From positions 1-64,000 of the forward strand of contig JAJYRA010000025.1 of NCBI GenBank assembly GCA_021794355.1: 64,000 bases of DNA, read 5' to 3'. The notes beneath the pieces were generated by a model that was given only the letters and a program-made list of their open reading frames with translations, was not told where the DNA came from and searched no databases. This DNA is from Thermoplasmata archaeon (GTDB lineage Archaea > Thermoplasmatota > Thermoplasmata > Thermoplasmatales > Thermoplasmataceae). The position numbers were made by a program, and so were the translations under genes. This document shows, piece by piece, positions 49,772 to 53,060 of this stretch. Within the stretch, counting starts at the first letter, position 1. Every line of letters starts with the position of its first letter.

Positions 49772-50159
49772 TGGGAAATATATTTTTCCGATGTTAAGCA
49801 AGACCTATGGCGGTTATACACAGTTGAGACTATAATTATATTTTGTGTCATTTCTTACGGAAAATACCGGATTTAGAAGGAATTAAAATGTATTATGTAA
49901 TTATCATTTACGCTAACGACTGCAAGAAAACATAAAAGCAAAAGTGAGAAAGAATACTTTGAATCCAGTAGATAAAGTAATTGAAACAAAGTTCAGTAAT
50001 TCATTTTCTAATAATGCATACAATGATGAACTGATGGATAAAGCCGATGAATTGTGAAATTTGAGTAATGCTAGTTAGGAAGGTCCAGTAGAATCAACCA
50101 TCAATTTCCACCATGGTTAACATGAATAATTTTATATAAGGTGAGAAGATTAATTTGAA

Positions 50160-52748
50160 ATGGGCAAATTATTCCCTGATGATTTCGGCAGATCGAGTCC
50201 TCCTAGTAGTTATCAAGAGATGTGGAATTCGCTTGCTAGAAATAAAAAGAAATTTGAGTATTACAGGGCCCACCAAGGGAAGATTTTGGAAGATTATGAT
50301 AAGATTGACGATGAGGTTAGTGATGTTGCGCTCTGTCTACCTACAGGAACAGGAAAAACTGCCATTGCGCTTAGCATTGCTTATATGAGTCAATTAAGGA
50401 GTGGCTCACGAGTATTGTATCTGAGCCCTAATTACCAGTTGGTTGACCAGATAATCTCAGAGGCTTCTGAACTTGGTATTTCAACGGTCAACTTATGCGG
50501 TAGTTGGGAAAAACTGCCAGAAGGAGAAATTGGGAAATACCAGTCAGGGTTATCAATTGGCGTTGCCACTTACTTCACTCTATTCAATTCAGCACCCCGT
50601 GTTAAAACTCCCGAGTTGATAATATTAGATGATATTCATGCCGCAGCTGAGGCTGTAGGGCATCCTTGGACTCTCTCGATAAAGAAAAAAGACGAGAACT
50701 GTGCTGGATTGTTTGAGAATATTTTTTCACTTTTGAAAAATCAACTAAGCAGAGAACAAATTTCCTTAATAGAAGCTAAACCCAGCAATGAGGAAGGAAC
50801 AGATTTGATTAACTCCAGAGAATGGTTACTTCTTGTTGATAGCTTTGCAGAAATTGTCAATCAGGAGCCTGAGAACCCGGAAGAAAAGCCGTCATGGAGG
50901 TACGCGTGGAAGAAACTGGAACAAAATCTGGAAAGGTGTTTCTGTTTCATCTCTTCTGGAAGGATCACTGTTAGACCTTGGATTTCCCCAACATTTGAGC
51001 TAAATCAATTTGCCAACGCAAAAAGGCGAGTGTACCTGTCAGCCACAATAGATGAATATGGGCATTTAGAACGCATAGTCTCAGTCCAAAATGTCAAGAG
51101 ACTGAGTAACAAGGATGTAGACGTTCCTGGAAGTAGACTCCTATTGGATTTGAACGTGCTTCTTCCTCAAGCCACTTCTGATGAGAATAAAGTCACGTTG
51201 TTTGCTAACAAGGTGAACAAAGTTGTTGTACTAAGCAGGGGAGATTTTGATCAACTTGAACTAAAGGACGCCTTAAGAACAGTGAAATATTCAGGCACAA
51301 TATTAACACCACTTTCTGATAGGATAAGTCAGGATATAGAAACGTTCAAGAAGGCTAACAAGTGCATCTTAATTTTATCAAACAGATATGATGGAATTGA
51401 CTTAGGAAACGGCGTAGCGGATGCAGTGCTCTTGTATAAGTTGCCGTTAGCTGTGAATCAACTTGAGAGATTTACAACCTACCAATGGAAAGCAAAGGAC
51501 GAGGCAGAAGCGAGAGCTAGACACAGAATACATCAGGGAATAGGGCGATGCACCAGAAGAGAATCAGATGAAATCCTGGTCGGTCTAGTTGGATCAGACC
51601 TCACCGAGTTGTTATACAGACCTAGTGTCTTTAAGGCTCTACCTCGTAAACTCAGGGCGGAGATTGATCTATGCAAGACGCTGACCAAACCAGAAAACTT
51701 AGATGAGTTAGTTAATGCATATAAAACAAAATCGGATGAGTGGAAAAGAGTGCTTAATCTCGTGGAGCAGAAACTAAGGAAATATCCGCCTGAGGAACAA
51801 GCAGATAAGAAAATTAGTGAGATCAGTGGTAAATATGTCAAATACAATGAACTGCTTTGGACAAAGAATTACACTGGCGCTTCAGACTTGGCGGCGAAAA
51901 CTGCTCAGGAATTGGTCTCCGGGAACTCTGATTTTAACTCCGCCCCATGGTTTTACCTTGCGAGCGTGTCGGAGGACGTCTCACAATTTTCAGCAACTGG
52001 AAATCCATATTCTGCACAGGGAACTCAGTTCATAGGAGAATCTGTGAGCAGGGCCAGAGGAAGATCATGGTTTGGAGATTTAGACAAGTACGTTTCCCCT
52101 CAGCCAATAATCCCAGAATTGCAATCACAACTGGATAACATTAGGAACTTCTTGCTTAGATTTCAATCACAGACCGCAGCTTTCGTAACTTTCAAGGATG
52201 AAATTTTGCAGAATATTGAAGATAGGAAAGACGGTACAATAAAGAAAGGACTGAGGAACCTAGGGGAATCGTTGGGCTTTGAAGCCATTTCCCCAAATCG
52301 GGATGGAGCTCCAGATTGTGTTTGGAAATTAGGAATGGAGACTGTGGCCATATTCGAAGCAAAGACAGAAAAAAAACCAAATAATCCGCTAAGTATTAAA
52401 GAGATTCGTCAGATATTAAGCATTCCCAAAGAGATTCCTCCAAATGAGAAAATTTCTGTTCCAGAAACAATGCACTGTATCTGTGTTACGGAATCAAAGT
52501 GTGTCGCTGCAGAAGAGATTGTCAGCTTAGAATCATTCCTTGTTTTGAACACGGAAGTTCTTGTCCAGTTCGCAAAAATCTGGCTTAATAGACTCGATTC
52601 GATTCACAGAAAACATCCCTCAGGTATCAACGAATTTAACGGGATGATACAGTCCGTTATAGTTCAATTAAGAGTTCATGGTCAATTGCTTTATAAAGCG
52701 ATGGGGATCGAAAAAGCCTCCAAAGTTTTGAATATATTCAAACAATGA
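50160..52748 (+). CDS. SF2 helicase with C-terminal PD-(D/E)XK-like nuclease domain; putative defence protein
   Basis: Motif I 'LPTGTGKTAIA', II 'ILDDIHAA', III 'LSATI', VI 'HQGIGRCTRR'; C-term 'GAPDCVWKLGMETVAIFEAKTEKK'. Confidence 0.75.
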   Translation: MGKLFPDDFGRSSPPSSYQEMWNSLARNKKKFEYYRAHQGKILEDYDKIDDEVSDVALCLPTGTGKTAIALSIAYMSQLRSGSRVLYLSPNYQLVDQIISEASELGISTVNLCGSWEKLPEGEIGKYQSGLSIGVATYFTLFNSAPRVKTPELIILDDIHAAAEAVGHPWTLSIKKKDENCAGLFENIFSLLKNQLSREQISLIEAKPSNEEGTDLINSREWLLLVDSFAEIVNQEPENPEEKPSWRYAWKKLEQNLERCFCFISSGRITVRPWISPTFELNQFANAKRRVYLSATIDEYGHLERIVSVQNVKRLSNKDVDVPGSRLLLDLNVLLPQATSDENKVTLFANKVNKVVVLSRGDFDQLELKDALRTVKYSGTILTPLSDRISQDIETFKKANKCILILSNRYDGIDLGNGVADAVLLYKLPLAVNQLERFTTYQWKAKDEAEARARHRIHQGIGRCTRRESDEILVGLVGSDLTELLYRPSVFKALPRKLRAEIDLCKTLTKPENLDELVNAYKTKSDEWKRVLNLVEQKLRKYPPEEQADKKISEISGKYVKYNELLWTKNYTGASDLAAKTAQELVSGNSDFNSAPWFYLASVSEDVSQFSATGNPYSAQGTQFIGESVSRARGRSWFGDLDKYVSPQPIIPELQSQLDNIRNFLLRFQSQTAAFVTFKDEILQNIEDRKDGTIKKGLRNLGESLGFEAISPNRDGAPDCVWKLGMETVAIFEAKTEKKPNNPLSIKEIRQILSIPKEIPPNEKISVPETMHCICVTESKCVAAEEIVSLESFLVLNTEVLVQFAKIWLNRLDSIHRKHPSGINEFNGMIQSVIVQLRVHGQLLYKAMGIEKASKVLNIFKQ

Positions 52749-53060
52749 TTCTTTACAAAACACTTGCGTCGAAACCTTTTGTCAAGAGTCTCCTCAAATA
52801 TGGTTTGAAGGCTTATGCATATAACAGACTCTTTTAGACTCATTAGATACCATGTAAGCCTTGGCGCGAAATGCGATTAGAAAGTTCCAAGATATATAAA
52901 AATAGAATACGGTTCCTTAGCATTGGAAAAATATATTTTCCCAAGTATGAGTGATAAACTCCACCTTCACATTGTTCTTAGAATCCTGTCATGTAATGAA
53001 ATAGTAGGAGATTTTAAAAAAATTTAAATTGATATAATTATAGAGTGTTAAAGGAATTAA

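Follow-up and report, generated by a model that had tools for sequence, protein, structure and literature searches.

The question raised by the window analyzed here, a 64,000-nucleotide stretch of DNA from a Thermoplasmata archaeon (contig JAJYRA010000025.1), is whether the long gene at 50160..52748 (+) belongs to antiviral defence and, if so, to which kind of system. A preliminary description had read its product as a single-gene SF2 helicase joined to a PD-(D/E)XK nuclease, a candidate defence system, and the analyses below support that reading; neither of the findings named there as refuting it was made. The open reading frame is intact, with 862 codons from an ATG at 50160 to a stop ending at 52748 and no internal stops. 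All of the SF2 motif strings previously quoted were found in the 862-aa translation, which contains LPTGTGKT (residues 60-67), ILDDIHAA (motif II), LSATI (motif III), RYDGID (motif V), and HQGIGRCTRR (motif VI). In an alignment of 95 homologues, used for residue conservation, these correspond to motif I (Walker A) PTGTGKT (61-67; 50340..50360, +), motif II DDIH (157-160; 50628..50639, +), motif III SAT (294-296; 51039..51047, +), motif V RYDGID (409-414; 51384..51401, +), and motif VI QGIGRCTR (459-466; 51534..51557, +). The DDIH box, which had been called unusual, is in fact the family-typical DD-x-H: DD was invariant in the 95 homologues and H was present in 94, and the isoleucine is the sole peculiarity of the archaeal protein there (A, V or S in other homologues). 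Pfam recognized the helicase core only (DEAD, 1.1e-12; ResIII, 4.2e-9). The C-terminal string PDCVWKLGMETVAIFEAKTEKK occupies residues 718-739.

Searches at the level of whole proteins identified a family. Both PADLOC models for PDC-S28 matched over nearly the entire protein (2.1e-88 and 2.9e-79). S. meliloti hna (SMa2245), recovered from pSymA, reached 1020 bits when scored with the same model, and PDC-S28 and Hna are therefore one family; the archaeal protein scored 296 bits against this 1020, and some other archaeal members scored 840-880. Among PDB sequences, the sole strong phmmer match was Hna (1.5e-29 over residues 54-739), represented by entries 10UJ, 9YHN, and 9YKJ, the cryo-EM structures of Hna of Sinorhizobium meliloti (SmHna; PMC13381803). 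Searched against the PDB, a profile of the archaeal protein's own branch found Hna across residues 11-817 (9.1e-80; next best match, 1.1e-12). Identity to SmHna, the one characterised Hna, was 19.6%. Hna was reportedly first found in S. meliloti, in a founding paper of 2023 in Cell Host Microbe, and for one family member defence by abortive infection has been shown. The product of 50160-52748 is very likely a very divergent archaeal member of Hna (helicase-nuclease abortive infection), a known single-protein system. The defence assignment of the preliminary description thus stands and the word candidate is outdated, the family being already known as Hna/PDC-S28 by a full-length match of sequence and fold; this is a defence gene of an already known kind, and the novelty lies in a divergent member in an archaeon. 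A literature search for the name PDC-S28 returned only a Bacillus cereus group paper, and Hna was absent from the main text of a survey that covered 7747 genomes of archaea (PMC12988326).

The predicted structure bears on the nuclease part of the earlier reading. An AlphaFold2 model built from 56 family sequences (mean pLDDT 88.2, pTM 0.77) predicted a C-terminal region with a nuclease fold (52230..52610, +). Within it, residues 691-777 form a helix, three strands, a helix, and a strand, i.e. the PD-(D/E)XK core, and D719, E733, and K735 fall on the strands where they are expected. The overall architecture is that of Hna, about 850 aa comprising two SF2 helicase domains followed by a PD-(D/E)XK domain at the C-terminus. 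In a Foldseek comparison with the PDB, ranks 1-3 (1.9e-35, 3.6e-26, and 1.7e-15) were all taken by Hna, as monomer and as the two chains of the dimer, ahead of DinG (3.0e-14, rank 4) and XPD (9.1e-13), so the best fold match was to Hna and not to DinG or XPD. The overall rmsd between the model and the Hna monomer was high (20 A), probably because the mobile nuclease domain is positioned differently. This domain is flexible in Hna (PMC13381803).

Conservation of the active sites was consistent with this fold. The archaeal protein retains Q39, K66, T67, D157, D158, H160, R463, R466, D719, E733, and K735. Q39 of the Q motif (50274..50276, +; Q39 of SmHna) was invariant in 95/95 homologues, D719 (52314..52316, +; D713 of SmHna) was invariant in the alignment, and E733-A-K735 (52356..52364, +) is the catalytic ExK corresponding to E727 and K729. 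Residues of SmHna mutated earlier are identical here, namely R36, Q39, P712/D713/E727 (P718/D719/E733), and K729 (K735); R36A/Q39A lost ATPase and K729A abolished nuclease activity in SmHna (PMC13381803). Between helicase motifs Ia and II the translation has a single cysteine (C113), and the protein therefore has no Fe-S cluster, as in Hna. The enzyme core as in Hna is well supported. Of 65 near-invariant columns, the archaeal protein differs at 10, and no listed catalytic residue is among these. The dimer-loop residues of SmHna in HEL1 are not conserved, with T30/D31/P34 reading K30/K31/Y34, and autoinhibition via the SmHna interface is therefore not supported in the archaeal protein. These positions vary in most other members, including those of SmHna's own branch, and on such residue comparisons the HEL1 dimerization loop is treated here as a feature of the SmHna group and not as one that defines the family.

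In a tree built from 94 sequences, Hna falls into two branches. The SmHna branch comprises 8 sampled rows and has support 100; the second branch holds the archaeal protein and 85 others, nearly all bacterial and from more than a dozen phyla. The end branch of the archaeal protein (P0001) is the longest in the tree (3.56), and its exact neighbours (Nitrospira, Acidithiobacillus, and Acidobacteriota; support 91) are unsure for this reason. Within the second branch, the catalytic lysine at the K735 position was replaced by H, Y or F in 44 of 87 homologues (e.g. at loci L008, L012, L041, L055, L057, and L078), nearly always after D (ED-H or ED-Y), and D719, W722, and E733 were invariant despite the replacement. 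The replacement maps to one change on the tree. Given the loss of nuclease activity in S. meliloti Hna with K729A, the K-less members may be either dead nucleases kept under constraint or enzymes of altered chemistry.

It is possible, though we consider it unlikely, that the archaeal protein belongs to a functionally distinct branch of the Hna fold whose nuclease is regulated or triggered otherwise, e.g. by single-stranded DNA ends or another viral protein, and not through the HEL1-loop dimer. The long, fully supported branch (100) separating it from SmHna, the non-conserved dimer-loop residues, and the single exchange of the catalytic lysine for H or Y in half of the branch, by which nuclease chemistry varies, are consistent with such a split. 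Against it, the archaeal protein matches SmHna in length, domain order, fold, and catalytic residues, and the dimer loop varies within the SmHna branch too and thus draws no sharp divider.

The distribution of the family in these archaea is sporadic. Matches were found in 3 of 77 genomes of the taxonomic family and in 11 of 399 genomes of the class, with strong scores in only 5; the remaining 6 scored about 41 bits and covered the helicase core only. The SmHna branch is represented in a congener (L003) too, and in other members of the class (L017, L018, and L021), and Hna therefore entered these archaea more than once, one archaeal genus holding two separate Hna branches. Single-sequence scans of genome contigs and of viral contigs gave no match because the archaeal protein is too divergent, and alignment-based scans gave matches. 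A scan of a phage collection yielded nothing beyond one weak partial match, and no close orthologue for dN/dS was found.

Several observations on mobility concern other members. Near-identical DNA with an SmHna-branch hna was seen at L110 (G412) and L018 (G399), in genomes of two different families, with 1455 nt upstream identical and 1033/1038 identical in the gene, reflecting either very recent transfer or a misbinned contig. Plasmid records matching the archaeal protein numbered 230, of which 106 were typed as conjugative, and among the matches listed (e.g. L013, Agrobacterium, Enterococcus) the annotation was mostly just DEAD/DEAH box helicase. Lactococcus plasmid pMRC01, known for phage resistance, carries an SmHna-branch Hna (L011:2842-5376; WP_010890672.1) annotated only as a DEAD/DEAH helicase.

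At its own locus, hna sits in a lineage-specific insertion. The gene is flanked by tsaC/Sua5 upstream and an MFS transporter gene downstream, with no adjacent methylase or partner gene, as had been noted. In congeners G009 and G011 the gene order is the same and the MFS gene directly follows tsaC, and the DNA between them in the window (49772..53060, 3289 bp) is missing. The tsaC product ends ...KKASIELE in the window and ...NRASIPITEMDGFR in G009, and this difference in the C-terminus makes it probable that the insertion struck the final codons of tsaC. The only gene in the insert is hna, with no intact gene in the stretch upstream of it. A TATA-box-like TTTATATAA (50131..50139, +) ends 20 bp before the ATG; hna is monocistronic with its own TATA-like box, at a position that would fit a leaderless single-gene archaeal transcript. 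Codon usage of hna was the most atypical among nine genes of the area (0.324 vs 0.147-0.270).

A 29-nt inverted repeat (86%) encloses hna, with its left arm at 49773..49801 (+) and its right arm at 52913..52941 (-), and the motif was seen twice in the window against 0.01 expected. It is possibly the edge of the inserted cassette. A transposon was considered as carrier and rejected, there being no transposase inside the insert and no target duplication seen, and the right arm lying some 55 bp short of the apparent right edge, though the repeat itself is beyond chance. A third near-copy (G000:C79:31018-31039, 23 identical nt) lies 100 bp upstream of an unrelated 233-aa gene with no Pfam or PADLOC match.

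Neighbours recurring at second-branch loci include BrxHI/Hma-type helicases (7 loci), type I R-M, a type IV restriction enzyme, and PglZ. These defence neighbours (BREX, Hma, R-M) vary in position and strand, and no constant partner, of R-M or Hachiman type or other, was found among the homologues. Defence-island company without an obligate partner is as expected for a single-gene system. This context weighs against the idea of a housekeeping role in place of defence, with the gene encoding an ExoDinG-like protein, a DNA-repair helicase of DinG/XPD type to which an exonuclease has been added. The idea draws on DinG, CasDinG, and XPD structures coming after Hna in the fold search and on the description of Hna itself as ExoDinG-like (PMC13381803), but Hna leads DinG by about 20 orders of magnitude, and sporadic occurrence, empty sites in congeners, and relatives in defence islands are ill-suited to a housekeeping gene; we regard it as quite improbable. 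That this copy of hna no longer functions and is decaying under relaxed selection, as the longest branch and the 10 departures from near-invariant columns might suggest, is highly improbable given the full-length open frame, the retention of all catalytic residues, the confident fold, and the promoter-like TATA box. That the protein serves a Hachiman, type I/III R-M or type IV CRISPR system as its helicase subunit is extremely improbable, the weak local matches (ResIII, 4.2e-9; typeIV_DinG, 1.7e-10; HamB, 0.023) being limited to the helicase core; gene context and partial coverage rule out the Hachiman, R-M, and type IV DinG readings.

As an Hna, the protein invites comparison with a described mechanism. 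SmHna is an ATP-bound autoinhibited dimer with 3'-5' ssDNA exonuclease activity that is released by a phage SSB, that of phage 5A, resulting in abortive infection (PMC13381803). In the archaeal protein, one polypeptide would link an SF2 ATPase of XPD/DinG type, devoid of an Fe-S cluster, to a PD-(D/E)XK exonuclease at the C-terminus. By homology, ATP binding would hold the nuclease off in the uninfected cell, and ATP control of this kind is plausible here. A viral replication protein would then relieve the ATP-imposed block, the released enzyme would degrade 3' single-stranded DNA, and the infected cell would stop or die, preventing spread of the virus. That the archaeal protein is active, is controlled by ATP, responds to a viral trigger, and protects this archaeon is in each case presumed from the S. 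meliloti system. A more doubtful proposal sets the second branch apart as a kind of Hna in its own right, triggered and regulated in a separate way, given the absence of an SmHna-type dimer loop and the altered nuclease site in half of its sampled members; the archaeal copy would then perhaps sense a protein of archaeal viruses unlike the T7-like SSB.

Among known systems, Hachiman (HamAB), Nhi, and Gabija have the logic of helicase plus nuclease defence in common with the archaeal protein. Hachiman and Gabija are two-gene systems, whereas the archaeal protein is a single-gene one; its match to HamB is weak and confined to the helicase core, and the neighbours of hna do not include a HamA nuclease gene. 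Type I/III R-M methyltransferase and specificity genes are likewise absent at the locus, and proximity to R-M genes is found only for some bacterial relatives. ExoDinG/DinG and XPD share the XPD-like helicase core, but the archaeal protein lacks Fe-S cysteines, has a C-terminal PD-(D/E)XK domain, and scores lower against them structurally. The two PDC-S28 models are matched near full length, at a lower score than other members, and with this unnamed PADLOC candidate now tied to Hna, many PDC-S28 matches become readable as Hna-like. The best match by both sequence and fold is SmHna, with which the archaeal protein shares a single gene of similar length (845 aa for SmHna vs 862 aa), the HEL1-HEL2-NUC order, the Q motif, motifs I-VI, the PD...ExK site, and the absence of Fe-S cysteines. 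It differs from SmHna in its low identity, its place on the other branch, the different residues at T30/D31/P34, and its archaeal host. A very divergent Hna is thereby placed in an archaeon of the class Thermoplasmata, and a comparison with SmHna could help to tell which parts of an ATP-repressed, virus-triggered switch are general.
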